From assembly GCF_943736985.1 (NCBI RefSeq), contig NZ_CALSFS010000005.1, forward strand, positions 62,001-126,000: a stretch of 64,000 nt of DNA. Direction: 5' to 3'. How positions within the stretch are numbered: the stretch's first letter is position 1; each line of letters starts with the position of its first letter. A model generated the notes under the pieces. It was not told the origin of the DNA, did no database searches, and saw only the letters and a list, made by a program, of their open reading frames with translations. The DNA comes from Clostridium sp. Marseille-Q2269 (GTDB lineage Bacteria > Bacillota > Clostridia > Clostridiales > Clostridiaceae). The position numbers were made by a program, and so were the translations under genes. Below, piece by piece: positions 56,008 to 64,000 of this stretch.

Positions 56008-57482
56008 TTATAACTTTAGTTAGGCAATTTCAAAAGCTAAATTACCTATTGAGACGATATTATACTTATTATGATATATTATCCATATAATATGAAAACA
56101 CTTGCCCAATTTTATATGATGAATTTTTAAAAACTCTAAGGGATTTTTAGCTCAGATAAAATATCTTTTAGTTCAATATTCTGTTTTGATTTTTCATATA
56201 TAAAGCACACAAGTGCTTTTGCCGTCAGGCTGTTTAGATATTTCTGAGTTTCACCTATAGTCTTAAAATCTCCGTGGTTGGAACTAACTCTAAATAATTC
56301 TAAAAAATTATAGATTAAGAATACTATAAGAAAATATCGTTCTATAGACAAAATGCTACGCATTCTATATTTATCAAAAGCTAAATTGCTTTTTAAATAT
56401 TTATATGAAGTTTCTATAGTCCATCTGTGAGAATAATATTTAATTATAGTTTCTGCATTTAATAAGATGTCGGTAGACAGCAAATATACTGGGTTCTTGA
56501 ATCCATCATGGGTGACTTCATAGCAAATAAGTATTTTAGCATAAGGGAATTTAGAAACATTACCTTCATAGGTATATACTCTATAGTCCTTACCTTCAAC
56601 TGTAACAAGGTCTAAGGTGTTAGGACTAAGGAATTTTTCAAATTTTGATAACTGCATTGAAATTCCTAATGGAGATATTTTTCTGTTAGATTTAATTGCT
56701 CCTATTAGGTGGTAGCCCTTTGCTAAAGATGCTTCTATTAAATTATTATTTGTATACCATGAATCCATAAGACAATACATTTTTTCACAATTAGATGGAG
56801 TTTTAAAAGAAGTTATAAAATTTTTTGCAATATCAATCTTAGATTTAAAATTTTTATTTAAATCTTTGCAAAATTCCTTTTTATAGTAAGGTTTATATTG
56901 TAAAGGAATAGATTTATCATTTACAACAAAATTTGAAGTAACCACACAATGTGACCAAATATTTTTGTCTTCTGTATGAGAGTAATTATAAGATAATCCT
57001 TGCATTTTCTTTGCTGATTTCTTGGGATTTACAGTATCATCTATAATCAAAAATCCTACGGATTTAGGTTTAATATTATGCTCAAGGAAAAAGTTTAAAT
57101 AGCTAATTCTATTGTTGTTCAGAAGACTATGGTCCCATTTAGAATGGCTTAAAAATCTATAAATACAACTTTTATCTTTTGATGACAACACATTTTTAGC
57201 AATTTCAGATAAAGTTTTAGTGCCAGGTAAATTAATTAATCCATTGGCAATATTGGTTAAATGATTAAATTGAGGCTTAGACATTCCATAATTTACATCA
57301 TTTAAGTAATTGTAAAGTTCATTATTAATGGATACAATATTAGTACTTGGCATACTTCTTACCTCCTGTGTTTGTATTTGTATGGTAACTTTTATATAAC
57401 ACAGTGAGAGAAAGTATGCCATATTTATTTTTTGGTAGTTTTACCAATTTAGATTTTTATTTTGCATAACTAAAGTTATAAT
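56008..57482 (-). mobile_element. Insertion sequence, IS4/IS701-type, complete
   Basis: About 1,475 bp bounded by 21-bp inverted repeats with one mismatch: left 56008-56028 (ATTATAACTTTAGTTAGGCAA), right complement 57462-57482 (ATTATAACTTTAGTTATGCAA). The exact outer ends are uncertain by a few bases because flanks are AT-rich; I could not fix a target duplication. One intact transposase. Confidence 0.8.
56136..57353 (-). CDS. DDE transposase, IS4 superfamily (IS701-like)
   Basis: About 405 residues, intact. First Asp in FLIIDDTVNPKKS (about 97), second Asp in CLMDSWYTNN, and the Y-2-R-3-E-6-K signature in YSHRWTIETSYKYLK near residue 315. These are the catalytic DDE residues of IS4-type elements. 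A frame opens at 57422; SD AGGAGG selects the ATG at 57353. No frameshift or stop, so the element may be active. Confidence 0.92.
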   Translation of the reverse strand: MPSTNIVSINNELYNYLNDVNYGMSKPQFNHLTNIANGLINLPGTKTLSEIAKNVLSSKDKSCIYRFLSHSKWDHSLLNNNRISYLNFFLEHNIKPKSVGFLIIDDTVNPKKSAKKMQGLSYNYSHTEDKNIWSHCVVTSNFVVNDKSIPLQYKPYYKKEFCKDLNKNFKSKIDIAKNFITSFKTPSNCEKMYCLMDSWYTNNNLIEASLAKGYHLIGAIKSNRKISPLGISMQLSKFEKFLSPNTLDLVTVEGKDYRVYTYEGNVSKFPYAKILICYEVTHDGFKNPVYLLSTDILLNAETIIKYYSHRWTIETSYKYLKSNLAFDKYRMRSILSIERYFLIVFLIYNFLELFRVSSNHGDFKTIGETQKYLNSLTAKALVCFIYEKSKQNIELKDILSELKIP

Positions 57483-58231
57483 TGTTTTGTCATTCCAATA
57501 ATATGATTATAAAACTCTTCCCTTTTATATTTTTTATCAATATTCCCTATAATATTTCCATCTTTTAAAAATATTACTTTTTTGCAATAACTAGCAATTT
57601 CAGCATCATGAGTTACTATTATTATTGTCTTCTTCATATCTTTATTAATATTCATAAAACTATCTATTACAATCTGCGCAGATTTAGAATCTAAATTACC
57701 CGTTGGCTCATCTGCTAATATTAACTCTGGTTCATTAATCAACGCCCTACATATTGCTACTCGCTGTTTTTCTCCTCCAGATAATTCGTAAGCATTTTTA
57801 TTTAACAAATCACTAATTTCAAAATGCTTAGCTAGCCCTTCCGTTGCACTTAACATTTTATTAGTTTCTTCTCCATCTAGAATCATTGGGAGCATAATAT
57901 TTTCTTTCACAGTTAAACTATCCATCAGATAAAAATCTTGAAATACAAAGCCAATTTCTTTTCTTCTAATATCTGCAATTTCATCCTCACCAAACTCTCT
58001 TGTACTTTTCCCTTTGAAAATAATATCACCAGATGTAAGATTTTCAATAAAGCCAAGTAGTTTCATTAAGGTTGTTTTTCCACAGCCTGACTTACCCATA
58101 ATTGCAATAAAATCTCCTTCTTCAACAAGTAAATCTAATCCTTTTATTACCTTTACCTTATTTTGTTCTTTTAGATTGTTCCCATTTATTTCATAATTTC
58201 GAACCAAATTTTTAGCTTCTATCACTACCAT
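57476..58231 (-). CDS. ABC transporter ATPase, BceA/MacB type
   Basis: 251 residues: Walker [14 protein letters not shown] (about 44-56), signature [16 protein letters not shown], Walker [14 protein letters not shown] and switch His in IIVTHD. The type that partners FtsX-like permeases in peptide-antibiotic resistance and export. The last codons (..MTKQL-stop) lie in the right inverted repeat of the neighbouring IS, so the natural C-terminus may have been replaced by a few residues. Starts 3 bp after the permease gene stop. Confidence 0.9.
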
Positions 58232-58234
58232 AAT

Positions 58235-60730
58235 TTATTCCTCCTTATCTCCAAGCCAAATCATTATTCTCCCCATTATAAACGCTACAATTAAATTTAT
58301 AAAAACATATACTCCTACAATCCATATTTCATATTTCCAAAATTCCTGTTGCTCTATTTTGGTAAAACAACGAACTTTGAAAGTAATAAAAATATATATA
58401 ATACCGGCTACTATTGCTAATACCAACGGTATAATTATCATAACATTATTTTCAAAATTCAAAATTTTTTTATACAACCTTTTATTCATACCTAAATACT
58501 TTAATTTCTTCATTCTGGCTCGTGTGTCTAGTAATTCTGAAACCATCTTTACAATAAAAACATATAATATACTAATCAACAATAATATTATTACAAATAT
58601 GTATTCCAAGAATTTCAACATATGGGACAATAATGTGTTGTTCTGCAAAACTTTTTTTTCATATACAGGTTGAATAATAGAGTCATATTTACTATATTTC
58701 ATATGATCTTTTGCATAATCTGAAAATTGTATAGCTGCTTCCTTTTCTTTATCTTTAGTTATATTAAACAATGCCAATGTACTTGGACCATTACCAGTAG
58801 AATATACTGATTTAAAATATTCATCAGAAAAAACTACTATATTCTCCTGCATTCCTCCTGCAAGGTTCCCAATGATAATTCTACGTTCTTGTCCTATAAC
58901 CTTATAATCGGAATTAAAAATTTTATTTCTATCTGCAAAAAAATATGGTTCTGGCATTCCAATCCTCATTCTAGGACTTCCAGTTAATACTGAAAAATCT
59001 AACAAATGTGCTTTTTCTGACTTATCCTGTTGGAATGAAATGTAAATTTCTTTATTCGTAAGTCCTAATTCTTTTCCCGTCAACTTATTGTAACTGTTCT
59101 CTGAAATCCCTATATTTTGCCCTTGAAAATTTATATCCATTCTATTTCCACTATTTGCTTCACTTGCACTAACCACTGTAATTCGTAGCATAGGAAGTAT
59201 TATACTTTTCTGAGAAAATTTTTTCTGAAACTCTTGAAAAGTTTTTTCATCCTCTTTTTCTCCTATACAAACATAATCATAAGGAAACAATACTTCTCCC
59301 CTGTTAAGTGGAATAATTGCAGATATTCGTACAGAAAAATATGCAATTAATAAAAAATGAAGAATATATATCATACCAAAATTACGTGTTTGTGTCTTAA
59401 ACCGGCTATAAAATTGTTGCAAAAACAGAAGTCTTTTGTAATATGCATTGTCCTTTTTTCTATAATTTTTTAAAATCCAAGCTCCTCCTGCACTAATAAA
59501 AATATAACAGCCAACCAAGAACATAATAATAAGATAAATAGACTCCGTCCACACAGGCTTAGAAAATAAATAACTAGAAAATAACATAAATATTATTCCT
59601 ACAACACATTTGATTCTTAACCATCTACCTGGTATTTTCTCTTTTGATATAGATATTTGTTCTAAAGACCCCCATTGCATTTCAATATAAATTTCATAAT
59701 TCACAATAGTTGATACTAAAAATAGTAAAATAACTGAAAAACATACTATGAAATATGTTTTTATACTGGGAAGCTCTATTGAAATAAAAGCTGGATATAT
59801 AGAATGTAGCACAGTCTCAAATCCAACTGTCATGACACTACCCATAGATATTCCAATTAATAGCCCTATTACTAAGGTTCCTATGTACTCAATTGCAATA
59901 AAATAGTTTAACACCTTATTTGAAATTCCTAAAATAATCATTAAATTATAATCTTTGACTCTGCTTTTCACATACATCTTTAAAGAGAAAGCTAATATGA
60001 AAATAGATAGAATTCCAATCAAAATAATTGCATCCCACAATAAGATGGATAACTCATCTCCTACCACAGGGACTTGTCCCTTTTGCAAGTCAGAAAATAT
60101 TATATAAACTGCAATAGTAGTAAACAAAAAGGCACTTGAAATAATTGCTGATGTAAGTAGCAATATAGAACTTCTTATATTACTTTTATAAATTTTCCAT
60201 AGAATTTTTTTCAGATATGGATTCTTCCTGATATGCTTCATCTGATTCGTATCTTCCATTCGTTTTGCATGTTCTACTTCTCTTTCCTGTTGCTCTTCTA
60301 TTTTTCGCTGTTTATCGTTTTGCTGAAAATCCTGAAATGAATCATACATCTTGGGCAACCAATGTGCAATGAAAATGAGAGGCATTCGAATCCACGGCCA
60401 CACGGTAAATGCACTATCTACTCCCAATCCACATAATAGAAGAGAAAAAATTCCTATCACCGTAGTCAGCAAACTTAAGTATACAATGACCCTCTCATAC
60501 CTGTCAGCATGATTTATTTTAAGCAATATCATATATATTAAATACTGCATTGGTGTAAGAAACAATAAAACTGCTGGAACTTGAATAGGTATTACGGGAT
60601 CCACCGTTTTAATATTTCCTACAAACAATTGAAATATAGTATAACTTTCTCCCTTATTTACGAGAACAGGGAAGCAAGAAATTAGTATAATAGAAATGGT
60701 AATCAACATTTGCATCTTTTGTTTTTTCAT
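58235..60730 (-). CDS. FtsX-type ABC permease with extra N-terminal membrane domain
   Basis: About 831 residues. An N-terminal unit of about four membrane helices (7-122) and a charged, coiled stretch (126-165, QQNDKQRKIEEQQEREVEHAK) precede an FtsX-like pair of domains with helices around 190-335 and 715-825, and a large extracytoplasmic domain of about 200 residues (475-690). BceB-type permeases usually have about 650 residues, so the N-terminal unit is additional. SD GGAGG selects the ATG at 60730. With the ATPase it forms an exporter or resistance pump; substrate unknown, though a RiPP cluster is nearby. Confidence 0.82.
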   Translation of the reverse strand: MKKQKMQMLITISIILISCFPVLVNKGESYTIFQLFVGNIKTVDPVIPIQVPAVLLFLTPMQYLIYMILLKINHADRYERVIVYLSLLTTVIGIFSLLLCGLGVDSAFTVWPWIRMPLIFIAHWLPKMYDSFQDFQQNDKQRKIEEQQEREVEHAKRMEDTNQMKHIRKNPYLKKILWKIYKSNIRSSILLLTSAIISSAFLFTTIAVYIIFSDLQKGQVPVVGDELSILLWDAIILIGILSIFILAFSLKMYVKSRVKDYNLMIILGISNKVLNYFIAIEYIGTLVIGLLIGISMGSVMTVGFETVLHSIYPAFISIELPSIKTYFIVCFSVILLFLVSTIVNYEIYIEMQWGSLEQISISKEKIPGRWLRIKCVVGIIFMLFSSYLFSKPVWTESIYLIIMFLVGCYIFISAGGAWILKNYRKKDNAYYKRLLFLQQFYSRFKTQTRNFGMIYILHFLLIAYFSVRISAIIPLNRGEVLFPYDYVCIGEKEDEKTFQEFQKKFSQKSIILPMLRITVVSASEANSGNRMDINFQGQNIGISENSYNKLTGKELGLTNKEIYISFQQDKSEKAHLLDFSVLTGSPRMRIGMPEPYFFADRNKIFNSDYKVIGQERRIIIGNLAGGMQENIVVFSDEYFKSVYSTGNGPSTLALFNITKDKEKEAAIQFSDYAKDHMKYSKYDSIIQPVYEKKVLQNNTLLSHMLKFLEYIFVIILLLISILYVFIVKMVSELLDTRARMKKLKYLGMNKRLYKKILNFENNVMIIIPLVLAIVAGIIYIFITFKVRCFTKIEQQEFWKYEIWIVGVYVFINLIVAFIMGRIMIWLGDKEE

Positions 60731-61746
60731 AATCTTCCTCCATAAAATCACTTTTTGTTATAAATTACCTAACGATTAATAATTAAAATCTAATAAAATT
60801 TTAATACCACATTAATAGTCCTTAGAAATTTTATAAAGATACAATGTCAATACAAAGTATCAATACAAATAATCCATATAACAGTTTACTCTCTTGAGAA
60901 AAATAAGCTAAATTGTTTCTTATCATTTATGTATGAAAGTAACACTTATTCATAATAATCGTCAAATTATATTAATTATGCTTATAACAATAATAGTGTA
61001 ATAATAGTTTTCGTCTACCAAAATCTATAACTATAAAACCTTCAAATAATAATATAGAACAAAATAAGATTTTAAATTTATGGAATTCCTAATATATTGT
61101 TTTAGTATCATGAGCCATTTAGTTTATTAATAAAAATTCTAGAAAGAATTATCTCTGTGCTTACTTTTAAAAAACAATAACTTTCATAAATTTCACTAAA
61201 AAATTTTGTTGTTATTTTGAAATAAAATTTTATTATCTAATTAGTTTATTCAAGAATACTAAAAACTTTGATCTCCCCTAACTATAATTAAGGAAAAACT
61301 TACTTCTTACAATATATTAATAAAATATTAATGTATACTATCACCATAAAAATTCCATCTCTTGGCGATGATATACTAAATGATATTATTTAATTATTCA
61401 ATAAAATATTTAATATAAAGTTCTAATATATTTTTACTCCTTTAATAATGCAAATTAATTAATATATATTTACATTCTATTATAACTTTGTATGTATACA
61501 ATACCATCTCCATAGCTTATAACCTTGAAAAGTAGTTATAGCTATTTATTATTATCTAGCTTAAATCACACATTATTGATTTATCTAAATATATTTATTT
61601 TTTAAATCACATTATAAACGAGTTTGTTAACCTTTTAAATGTTAATTTCTCATATTTCTATGTAACACACAACATTAATAGTATTGGATTATTGCTTAAT
61701 TCACTCTTTCATAATTACTTAACACAAGGAAGCTTAATTTATTAAA
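60731..61746. other. 1-kb AT-rich gap between RiPP genes and ABC pair
   Basis: No frame with an SD and start codon in either orientation; I checked the SD-like AAGGAG (near 61435) and GGGGAG (near 61275) and neither leads to an ORF. It holds tandem repeats at 60847-60869, an imperfect hairpin at 61513-61545 and a TGTATGTATACA palindrome (61489-61500). It must carry the promoter of the permease gene. Confidence 0.5.
60847..60869 (-). repeat. Tandem 10-bp repeats upstream of the permease
   Basis: TCAATACAAA at 60847-60856 and 60860-60869 (period 13); on the minus strand TTTGTATTGA twice, the second running into TTGACA. Located about 120-140 bp before the permease ATG, a plausible operator; inference. 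Confidence 0.35.
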
Positions 61747-61778
61747 TTAACCCCACACAATAATTTGGGTGGGGTTAA
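61747..61778 (-). terminator. Terminator after RiPP precursor
   Basis: Perfect 10-bp GC-containing stem TTAACCCCAC/GTGGGGTTAA (61747-61756 / 61769-61778), followed on the minus strand by TTTAATA, 13 bp past the precursor stop. It isolates the precursor transcript from the ABC genes. Confidence 0.9.
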
Positions 61779-61790
61779 TTATTATAAGTT

Positions 61791-61952
61791 TTATGATGAT
61801 GGTTCAATTAATGACGCTGCTACCCATGCAGGAGCTGCATTAGATGCATTAGTAAAAATATTAATACCACATCCACACGTGCAACCGCAAAATCCTCTAG
61901 TATATATTGCATTTACTTTATGATATTGTCTTTTCCCTAATTCTTTTTTCAT
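61791..61952 (-). CDS. Cys-rich RiPP precursor peptide (Clo7bot-like)
   Basis: A 53-residue peptide. Leader-like part MKKELGKRQYHKVNAIYTRG is basic and hydrophilic. Core starts FCGCTCGCGIN with four cysteines alternating at 22, 24, 26 and 28, then a hydrophobic, Ala-rich tail NASNAAPAWVAASLIEPSS. Strong SD (GGGAGG) 8 nt before the ATG at 61952, and its own terminator. It lies downstream of a CcpM-like radical SAM enzyme, a TIGR04066-type protein and an ACP-like protein, the gene set I associate with the Clo7bot family of Cys-rich peptides (TIGR04067, from memory). No double-glycine cleavage motif. The modification and activity are unknown. Confidence 0.85.
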   Translation of the reverse strand: MKKELGKRQYHKVNAIYTRGFCGCTCGCGINIFTNASNAAPAWVAASLIEPSS

Positions 61953-62057
61953 ATTTATCGCCTCCCTATATAAATATTATTTATAACATATATATCCTTA
62001 TTAGATATATGCTACACTGGTTTAATAAAATTATACTTTAACTCTGATACATAACAT

Positions 62058-62294
62058 TTATTTACCAACACATTTTAATATATTTTCATACGTATTAAAT
62101 TTTCCCTTATTAATATAATCATGTGAAATAGATATACCCATTTCTTTTTCAATATCAAAAAGAATCAGCACTAGATCTCGAGGTTTTACTCCAATTTCTT
62201 CTCCTAATAAACAAATATTCTTCAAATGTATATTTTCTTCAAAATCAATACCTGTTCTTCGCATAAAAATTCTATTTAGAATACTACTTTTCAC
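62058..62294 (-). CDS. Acyl-carrier-protein-related maturation protein
   Basis: A 78-residue protein, helical, aligned by eye with acyl carrier proteins (GEEIGVKPRDLVLILFDIEKEMGISI against the usual LGADSL...EFGI region). The Ser of the DSL motif that carries phosphopantetheine is not present at that place (VKPRDL instead), so it is probably not a carrier. I relate it to TIGR04069 (acyl carrier-related peptide maturation protein, from memory). GTG start with SD GGAGG at 7-nt spacing, 15 bp after the TIGR04066-like gene. The precursor follows 105 bp on. Confidence 0.75.
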   Translation of the reverse strand: MKSSILNRIFMRRTGIDFEENIHLKNICLLGEEIGVKPRDLVLILFDIEKEMGISISHDYINKGKFNTYENILKCVGK

Positions 62295-62309
62295 GACTAT
62301 ACCTCCATA

Positions 62310-63389
62310 TCATATTACTTGTATCTCTCTATATGTAGAAAGTTTCTTAATAATATTATCTACTAGTCTTGATATTTCTTTATTTTCATTTAGCGCGTAT
62401 ATATTATCGTTTTTTAAGTAATCAACTTTTTCAAAAACTAGTTGATTACTTAATGTCAAAAATTGAATCTTTCTTTTTATTTCTGTATCTTCTACCTCTA
62501 TCATTCTATTGCATATATTGTAATAATCTATATCTTTACCTAATCTAACACTCGCTTCTTTGCCTATTCTTAGTAATGTTTCATAGTCATATTCTCCATA
62601 CATAACACTTAATATAACACAATCTGGCAATACCGCTTGAGAAATTTCAAATCCTAACACCCCCATATCACCTGTAAATATTCTACTTAATGGTAAAATA
62701 TTTTGTGGAATACCTAGAATTATTAAATCCGGGTTTTCTAACATTTCAATTTCCTTTACAAAATAATTAAACTTTAGTATTTTTTCAGTCTCTGTAAATG
62801 TTTTATCAAACATAAAATCAGGAATAGAATACATTCTAAATAAGTTACCTATTTTTCTAGATGTGATATTGGATACTCTATAACCTCTCTCAGTAAATTC
62901 TCTACCAACTGCAAGCTGAATATCAAATTTATCTGTGTACTCTGTAATGCCTGATACAAAAATAATTGGAACATCTATGTCATATAATTGTTGTGACATA
63001 ACATAACTACAGTCATAATAATTGTCTTTAAACAAAGAATAATTTGGAACGTTAACTTTAATAACATCTTCTTCTTTATTGATAAACTTCCTTGTATATA
63101 TTATATTTTTTCTTAAGTTATTCACCTCTTCTATCTTAGGCAATATAAATTTATTAAAATCAATATCATTTTTAGAATCCACAAACCATACTGTTTCACA
63201 CTCAGCTAGTTTTTCTGAAAAATTATCACTTATTCTTAGGGACTTATTATCATTATTTATCTCCCTTCCTGTTAAGCCCCAGCCTCTAGGACTCACTAAA
63301 GAAACAATATTTAAGCCGGTAATTAATTCTTCATATTTTACGATTGGAAGGCTTTCCATATCATATGGATAAAGCATTACTTTATTCAA
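62310..63389 (-). CDS. TIGR04066-type peptide maturation system protein
   Basis: A 359-residue soluble protein, beginning MNKVMLYPYDMESLPIVKYEEL, that I match to the TIGR04066 family found only beside CcpM radical SAM enzymes. Segments that look conserved are LVSPRGWGLTGREI, VSGITEYTDKFDIQLAVGREF and ILGIPQNILPLSR; the middle region looks like a nucleotide-binding fold but no Walker motif is complete. No enzyme activity known. Start is TTG at 63389 with SD AAGGAGG; it overlaps the radical SAM stop by 8 nt, so translation is coupled. Confidence 0.8.
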   Translation of the reverse strand: MNKVMLYPYDMESLPIVKYEELITGLNIVSLVSPRGWGLTGREINNDNKSLRISDNFSEKLAECETVWFVDSKNDIDFNKFILPKIEEVNNLRKNIIYTRKFINKEEDVIKVNVPNYSLFKDNYYDCSYVMSQQLYDIDVPIIFVSGITEYTDKFDIQLAVGREFTERGYRVSNITSRKIGNLFRMYSIPDFMFDKTFTETEKILKFNYFVKEIEMLENPDLIILGIPQNILPLSRIFTGDMGVLGFEISQAVLPDCVILSVMYGEYDYETLLRIGKEASVRLGKDIDYYNICNRMIEVEDTEIKRKIQFLTLSNQLVFEKVDYLKNDNIYALNENKEISRLVDNIIKKLSTYREIQVI

Positions 63390-64000
63390 AATTAATAATC
63401 CTCCTTTCTATGGTCCCTAATTCAAAATCATATCCTAGTTCCTTTAAAGTACAATAATCTTTAAATTGTTCCTCAATAGCCTTTCTAATTCTATTACATT
63501 TCTTTTTCAAAATCATATTTGATTTCTCTAAACACTCTCCCATTTGCATTACACATAATTCACAATATTCATACGCCCAGCAAGAATGGCATATTTTATT
63601 GTTGAAATTTTCAATATTAAGGATTTTTCTCCCTGATTCTATATTTAGTCCATGTTCCACATCACCTATACACGTAAAACTAGCTGATTCACTTACTTTT
63701 TCACAAGGAAAGAATTTTCCTTCTATGTTTAAGAATAATCTCTGAACACCCGGAATGCAGGGTCCACCATGATGCCATCTTTCTGGTAATTCTATTCTTG
63801 TTGATCCATGTTTTCCAACTCTAGCTCTTAAAGCACTGCTAAACTGTTTTTTGGCTATAATAGAAACATCATTTTCATCCAATTTGCCTAATTTTGCTAG
63901 CATAACTTTAAACTGTTCGTATCTATTTTCTTCCACAAATCTTCTTGTAATATTAATTTTTCCTTTATAATAAACATCACTAACAATTGAAGTATTGAAT
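63382..64000 (-). CDS. ccpM: CcpM-like radical SAM/SPASM peptide maturase, N-terminal part outside window
   Basis: The frame is open to the right edge (about 206 residues visible), so the GTG-started 184-residue frame is not a whole gene. Visible is the C-terminal auxiliary-cluster (SPASM) domain: C-X12-G-X4-C in CIPGVQRLF...GKFFPC, then TCIGD, then C-X2-C-X5-C-X2-C in CHSCWAYEYCELC, and further Cys in MGECLE and KKKCNR. These bind extra [4Fe-4S] clusters. The radical SAM core with CxxxCxxC must lie beyond 64000. Assigned to the CcpM (TIGR04068) type by neighbours and sequence; it should modify the Cys-rich precursor. Confidence 0.85.
   Translation of the reverse strand, partial: FNTSIVSDVYYKGKINITRRFVEENRYEQFKVMLAKLGKLDENDVSIIAKKQFSSALRARVGKHGSTRIELPERWHHGGPCIPGVQRLFLNIEGKFFPCEKVSESASFTCIGDVEHGLNIESGRKILNIENFNNKICHSCWAYEYCELCVMQMGECLEKSNMILKKKCNRIRKAIEEQFKDYCTLKELGYDFELGTIERRIINFE

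Follow-up and report, generated by a model that had tools for sequence, protein, structure and literature searches.

The closest described relative of the system treated here is the SacP23 cluster of Paenibacillus polymyxa #23. According to the available sections of its description, this cluster has eight genes, which include a TIGR04068 (CcpM-type) maturase, a TIGR04066 protein, a TIGR04069 protein and a CLI_3235 precursor, and it was cloned whole and expressed in B. subtilis. The purified material gave an m/z of 3404 and had a blocked N-terminus. It was active on S. aureus, B. subtilis, B. cereus and E. faecalis, and inactive on L. monocytogenes, C. perfringens, L. plantarum and three Gram-negatives. 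Its authors propose that the TIGR04066 protein confers immunity and that the TIGR04069 protein takes part in precursor modification (PMC10731318). The same kit was listed for Roseburia in 2015 (PMC4573289); in the parts available of two further papers, the kit or the precursor is listed (PMC7343975) and CcpM is named as an annotated cluster (PMC9062424). Here we describe the minus strand of positions 61791-64000 in a stretch of 64,000 nucleotides (the window) from Clostridium sp. Marseille-Q2269 (contig NZ_CALSFS010000005.1). We propose that the window contains the 3' end of a CcpM-type operon for a ribosomally synthesised and post-translationally modified peptide (RiPP), and that this operon is a divergent member of an already known system. 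To this explanation, taken as a whole, we assign a probability of about 0.72.

Four genes at the edge of the window

Four tightly spaced open reading frames (ORFs) occupy the minus strand of this region, and their coordinates and spacing confirm the order given in the initial annotation. The first (63382-63999) is open at the window edge and encodes the C-terminal part, with the SPASM domain, of a CcpM-type radical S-adenosylmethionine (SAM)/SPASM maturase. It overlaps by 8 bases with the gene for a TIGR04066 peptide-maturation protein (62310-63389), which is separated by a 15-base gap from the gene for a TIGR04069 acyl carrier-related protein (62058-62294). After a gap of 105 bases follows the gene for a 53-residue precursor peptide (61791-61952), preceded by an AGGGAGG ribosome-binding site read in the sequence at 61961-61967.

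The family names given in the initial annotation were borne out by a profile search against NCBIfam. The CcpM part matches TIGR04068 with an E-value of 2.4e-59 and 201.4 bits, over profile positions 274-462 of 462 (189 positions present). This score lies under the cut-off of 500 bits, which is set for the whole protein, because the window protein is cut by the window edge. The TIGR04066 protein scores 341.7 bits (cut-off 200) and the TIGR04069 protein 81.2 bits (cut-off 70). The initial annotation had pointed to profile searches for all four proteins; TIGR04066, TIGR04068 and TIGR04069 were found in this way, but the peptide had no match to a precursor model and no NCBIfam match of note. Pfam gave no match for the three larger proteins, and for the peptide only a sub-threshold match to DUF6527 (0.0094).

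The SPASM cysteine pattern noted earlier is present. Seven cysteines (C81, C99, C137, C140, C146, C149 and C168 of the 205-residue CcpM stretch) are invariant in an alignment of the window protein with those of three fecal scaffolds. The precursor gene had also been credited with its own terminator, and this part of the annotation holds only in part. A strong hairpin lies directly 3' of the gene (61745-61780; -18.6 kcal/mol, z -4.1), but it has no T run and a terminator scan with a loop limit of 8 reports no terminator there. The hairpin is possibly a terminator or a stabiliser of the mRNA end.

A precursor peptide with four closely spaced cysteines

The precursor peptide starts with MKKELGKR and carries cysteines at positions 22, 24, 26 and 28 (CxCxCxC), followed by a 25-residue tail rich in Ala, Ser and Asn. 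In the relatives, short Cys-rich ORFs typically begin with MKKLGKK...ETIEAY, after which the cysteines follow. We built a profile from 48 such precursors, which were chosen for an LGK-like start and a minimum of three cysteines; identical ones were merged and the window peptide was left out. Against this profile, the window peptide ranks first among 388 window ORFs (E 3.3e-6; runner-up 0.38), and none of 2000 shuffles equals its score. Given how the 48 members were chosen, this score leans partly on the start and the Cys block.

The first cysteine falls at residue 19-25 in 46 of the 48 precursors (residue 22 in the window), and CxC is the commonest spacing (135 of 209). With respect to the nearest CcpM gene, the precursor is encoded upstream in 38 of the 48 cases and downstream in 10, and the window belongs to the latter. 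TIGR04065, the curated model for CLI_3235, recognises peptides from two fecal scaffolds (L001 and L002) and misses part of this peptide group. By the profile comparison, the window peptide qualifies as a CLI_3235-like precursor in the wider sense.

The same operon could make a ranthipeptide or another radical SAM product, with a beta- or gamma-thioether or a C-C link, instead of a sactipeptide. The CcpM part of the window also matches the models of the PapB ranthipeptide maturase (3.1e-08) and the SCIFF maturase (0.0013). Furthermore, the CxC spacing of the precursor is tighter than that of classic sactipeptides. However, the CcpM model itself, the lachnocin maturase (2.8e-16) and the RumMC sactipeptide maturase (8.4e-14) all score better, and the precursor tails (1337 residues) are poor in Asp (3.6%) and Glu (1.8%), the usual ranthipeptide acceptors. 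We consider a product of this kind unlikely, although it is the most probable of the alternatives.

The gene kit in related bacteria

Relatives were gathered with the CcpM alignment, which gave 43 loci in the genome_contigs collection and further loci from other genomes. By their labels, the 43 loci come mostly from Clostridia-type bacteria or Paenibacillus, together with one from Spirochaetales (L009), one from Gemmatimonadota (L046), at which no TIGR04066 was found, and two labelled 'bacterium' (L033, L044). Gene counts were made over 55 loci with long flanks (the 43 and 12 more), in which two clusters are repeated (L022/L023 and L017/L099). CcpM adjoins TIGR04066 in 52 of these 55 loci. Counted over the whole of each fetched stretch, 47 loci have an ACP-like (acyl carrier protein-like) gene, 38 an S8 protease and 44 an ABC (ATP-binding cassette) protein of some kind. 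A precursor ORF, whose absence from orthologous clusters would have counted against the initial annotation, is detected by a strict pattern in 39 of the 55. Because selection was by leader pattern and identical precursors were merged, L023 and L099, whose peptides are those of L022 and L017, as well as L005, which has an odd leader, are counted as loci without one.

All 79 distinct CcpM-like ORFs of at least 430 residues from the relatives contain the CxxxCxxC core. Among PDB entries, the CcpM alignment matches 5wgg best (E 2.4e-43), which we take to be CteB, a SCIFF maturase; the match spans the relatives' radical SAM half and not the part present in the window.

TIGR04066 occurs above its cut-off in 16 of 391 genomes of the class and in none of 14 control genomes. 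With the window TIGR04066 protein as query, matches were obtained in 12 of 206 genomes of the Clostridium yunnanense family, with a best identity of 41%, while the best identity for the window ValS in the same genomes is 84%. In a tree of 70 TIGR04066 and two DUF1611 proteins, the window protein sits on a long branch (1.28) and does not join a well-supported small group. Single-sequence scans with this protein returned nothing from genome_contigs, viral_contigs and plasmids, and a scan of the phage collection matched only three unannotated fecal scaffolds.

These scaffolds (L001, L002 and L003) were deposited as 'Bacteriophage sp.' and carry CcpM clusters, of which that on L002 is the fullest; they look like bacterial DNA. 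L003 may be chimeric, because one of its minus-strand ORFs presumably corresponds to the first part of an outer-membrane protein of Bacteroidetes. On the contig labelled Spirochaetales (L009, 2953-3635), three tandem precursor genes are located upstream of one CcpM, which may point to transfer across phyla or to misbinning of the contig.

TIGR04066 resembles an eroded DUF1611-type protein

In an alignment of 36 TIGR04066 members, the middle of the protein reads PVI-V-G-x6-K-F-x-IQL and, further on, PDVIIIGIPGG, which resembles a P-loop protein. Profile-profile comparison (hhalign) of these 36 members with two true DUF1611 proteins aligned both domains, with a probability of 96.4% and an E-value of 1.1e-9. 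The TIGR04066 profile also finds one of the two DUF1611 proteins (L107) directly, at 5.2e-6. The window TIGR04066 protein does not match Pfam PF07755, and its kinship with DUF1611 rests on the profile-profile comparison and on intermediates. No sequence in the PDB matched the TIGR04066 profile with an E-value better than 0.32.

For residue counts, 18 matches (repeats, truncated or N-terminally incomplete sequences and fusions) and then 3 near-duplicates were dropped, so that 69 proteins and that of the window remain. The Walker A regions of TIGR04066 and DUF1611 proteins align without gaps. Among the 70 TIGR04066 proteins, the Gly before the Lys is kept in one, and the Thr likewise in one. In the window protein, which keeps the Lys, both are replaced by Asp, and the Gly-Lys-x-Thr motif is absent. 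Gly, Lys and Thr are all kept in the two DUF1611 proteins, in two fusion proteins described below (L123 and L124) and in a fragment (L127). Judged by these alignments, TIGR04066 looks like an eroded DUF1611-like fold consisting of a Rossmann and a P-loop domain.

The likely DUF1611 origin of TIGR04066 is new content, as is the likely inactivity of TIGR04066 and its carrier-like partner. A full-text search with the family names, CcpM and SacP23, judged by title and the start of the abstract and with subscription journals mostly uncovered, did not find the function of TIGR04066 or TIGR04069 worked out. Among the matches listed for DUF1611 and DgcN, judged by title and abstract, there were only unrelated papers.

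The leader protease shares a domain with TIGR04066

The C-terminal part of the S8 protease is homologous to TIGR04066 (hhalign 97.3%, E 2.7e-11). From 54 protease ORFs of more than 330 residues, 44 had tails of at least 150 residues, and 35 of these were left after removal of near-duplicates. With TIGR04066, 16 of the 35 tails score above the HMMER inclusion threshold, and the best tail from a CcpM-type cluster reaches 1.1e-10 (L019). A domain common to TIGR04066 and the protease suggests that both recognise one partner. Their common origin also makes the role of two widely co-inherited partners testable by binding or reconstitution.

A DUF1611 search of 196 genomes gave two ORFs, in G263 and G255, both of which are also TIGR04066 matches. 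The ORF in G263 (L123, 5877-7748) and an ORF in G402 (L124, 5821-7644) encode fusions of an S8 protease with a DUF1611-like domain. Both have an intact Walker A motif and lie beside a carrier gene with an intact Ser. Their C-terminal parts match DUF1611 with 37.5 and 33.9 bits (cut-off 25), and the same residues match nearly the whole of TIGR04066 with 71.4 and 84.6 bits (cut-off 200). The maturases of these two clusters are nearest to the Clo7bot and TIGR04463 models, both below cut-off. A search for more fusions with an intact P-loop in sets of 391, 22 and 206 genomes, in viral contigs and in plasmids, in which one empty answer is uninformative by itself, found only these two to be complete.

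Two other S8 fusions with a TIGR04066-like domain (L125, 6871-8553; L126, 5411-7144) are of the lachnocin type and have lost the Walker A motif. The maturases of their clusters exceed the cut-off of the lachnocin model (NF038170), and no carrier gene was found in either cluster. Beside these fusions are small, weakly matching precursors that contain the sequence TLGCHCGC.

TIGR04066 and the carrier-like protein both lack their active-site motifs

The TIGR04069 profile, built from 25 sequences including a true carrier (L043), matches solved acyl carrier proteins with a best E-value of 8.5e-7, and the Ser of the carriers aligns to a Pro. The Pfam phosphopantetheine domain is matched by three of the 25 members; on its own, the window protein matches nothing in Pfam. 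Over 46 TIGR04069 matches, the Ser column holds Pro in 34, Ala in 9 and Thr, Gly and Ser in one each; in the window it holds Pro. The sole Ser is that of L043, at which no TIGR04066 was found. Walker A and carrier Ser are both lost in all 32 scorable loci, window included, although related loci are not independent. In the clusters of the two intact fusions, by contrast, the carriers keep a DSL motif. With two clusters (L123 and L124) showing an intact pair, this sample is small.

From these patterns we tentatively suggest, at rather less than even odds, that TIGR04066 and TIGR04069 are a retired enzyme pair. An active DUF1611-type P-loop protein and a true acyl carrier would be ancestral, and the pair would now serve as a handover scaffold between the radical SAM maturase and the leader protease.

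Alternatively, TIGR04066 may still bind a nucleotide or CoA and, together with the ACP-like protein, acylate or use ATP, for example for capping the peptide. Of the 70 TIGR04066 proteins, 64 retain the Walker A Lys, and a residual capacity to bind a ligand is therefore possible. The model of the N-acetyltransferase DgcN (cut-off 480 bits) gives 168.2 and 245.9 bits with the two true DUF1611 proteins, and a blocked N-terminus, as reported for SacP23 in the available sections (PMC10731318), would suit such an activity. However, the loss of the Gly and of the Thr in 69 of 70 proteins each, and of the carrier Ser in 45 of 46, makes an active enzyme pair improbable.

A proposed model for maturation and handover

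In the model that we favour, the radical SAM/SPASM enzyme CcpM would read the conserved MKK-x-LGK leader of the precursor. It would then tie C22, C24, C26 and C28 to the Ala/Ser/Asn-rich tail, probably by thioethers, with an expected mass change of -2 Da each and -8 Da in total. TIGR04066 and the ACP-like protein, whose active-site motifs are eroded, would stem from a DUF1611-type P-loop protein and an acyl carrier protein and would be non-catalytic. As an adaptor, the pair may present the precursor to CcpM and hand it over to a leader protease, the C-terminal half of which would be built from the same domain as TIGR04066. This subtilisin-type protease and a peptide ABC exporter would be expected upstream of 64000. 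The product would most likely be an antibacterial peptide, like SacP23.

Instead of an adaptor, TIGR04066 might be an immunity protein. This was proposed for SacP23 from a likeness to ATPase subunits, and the sensitive B. subtilis host survived expression of the cluster; the same source reports no membrane segment for the protein (TMH 0), again in the sections available (PMC10731318). A homologous domain fused to the leader protease fits a role in processing better, and we consider immunity highly improbable. Equally hard to credit is a decayed remnant, broken upstream of 64000 and without a product: such a protease or peptide exporter is missing from the window and an IS701-type transposase lies nearby, but the four reading frames are open and closely packed, a ribosome site precedes the precursor gene, and the SPASM cysteines and the precursor are intact.

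Several observations weigh against the proposed CcpM-type operon and its adaptor model. The radical SAM core, which would lie past 64000, the S8 protease and the exporter are absent from the 64-kb window, so that the cluster may be incomplete. The last 14 kb of the window have no S8 match, and the sole ABC match there is an ATPase (57476-58231). Among the 55 long-flank loci, the ACP-like gene is missing in 8 and the S8 protease in 17. TIGR04065 (26 bits) has no match to the window peptide at E-values up to 10 with HMMER filters on, and the T-x-x-A-Y leader motif, found in 38 of the 48 precursors, is poorly conserved in this peptide. Of the two true DUF1611 proteins, the second (L106) escapes the TIGR04066 profile. 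Pfam hints in the 36 TIGR04066 members are weak, with DUF1611_N in two (best 0.022) and the DUF1611 P-loop in three (best 0.12), and the best Pfam scores are those of DapB_N (four members, best 6.8e-6). The frequent retention of the Walker A Lys also belongs here. Of the protease tails, 19 of 35 fall below the HMMER inclusion threshold, and the strongest (L081, 1.9e-21; the same protein as in L126) comes from a lachnocin-type cluster. Finally, the initial annotation had taken no product, chemistry or activity to be established for this group. The purified material and antibacterial activity reported for SacP23 make this out of date as regards product and activity, but no cross-links are shown in the available sections of PMC10731318. 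We also compared the m/z of 3404 with sub-fragments of four homologous precursors; it fits several unlike fragments and singles out none.

Surroundings of the cluster

An ABC pair is encoded on the minus strand 1 kb downstream of the precursor gene (57476-60751). Its ATPase (57476-58231) is nearest to the bacteriocin-export model TIGR03608, with 218.8 bits and thus below the cut-off of 254.85, and its permease partner of 838 residues has no family match. The pair could serve immunity or be unrelated. An IS701-family transposase is encoded on the minus strand between valS and the ABC genes (56136-57422). Three relatives share with the window the proximity of folC and valS, but the stretches of 16-19 kb examined in them yielded neither a CcpM nor a TIGR04066 match; at one such place (L128), a 215-residue ORF lies between folC and valS. 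Together with the nearby transposase, these three relatives make the cluster region look acquired.

Comparison with known systems

The lachnocin-type clusters (NF038170; L125 and L126) share with the window a related maturase and the TIGR04066-like domain, which is there fused to the S8 protease. They differ in their precursors, and no ACP-like gene was found in them. The DUF1611/DgcN-like proteins align with TIGR04066 over two domains at the profile level but, unlike it, retain the Gly and Thr of the Walker A motif.

In Roseburia intestinalis L1-82, the TIGR04068, TIGR04066 and TIGR04069 families occur together as in the window, and the cluster also contains a subtilase and an ABC transporter. 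The structural gene was not obvious to the authors in the part of the source available (PMC4573289).

CLI_3235 precursors (TIGR04065) resemble the window peptide in the MKK-LGK start, a first cysteine near residue 20 and the CxC spacing. The window peptide is nevertheless undetected by TIGR04065, and its kinship is established only by our own profile of 48 precursors.

Finally, the SacP23 cluster shares with the window the TIGR04068 maturase, the TIGR04066 and TIGR04069 proteins and a short Cys-rich precursor. The window shows none of its protease, transporter and sigma-factor-like genes. According to the available sections, its precursor has 61 residues and belongs to the CLI_3235 family (PMC10731318), whereas that of the window has 53 residues and four cysteines, is encoded downstream of the gene for the ACP-like protein and goes unrecognised by the CLI_3235 model. 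With the operon described here, a divergent precursor joins a peptide group of which one member has been reported to be antibacterial.

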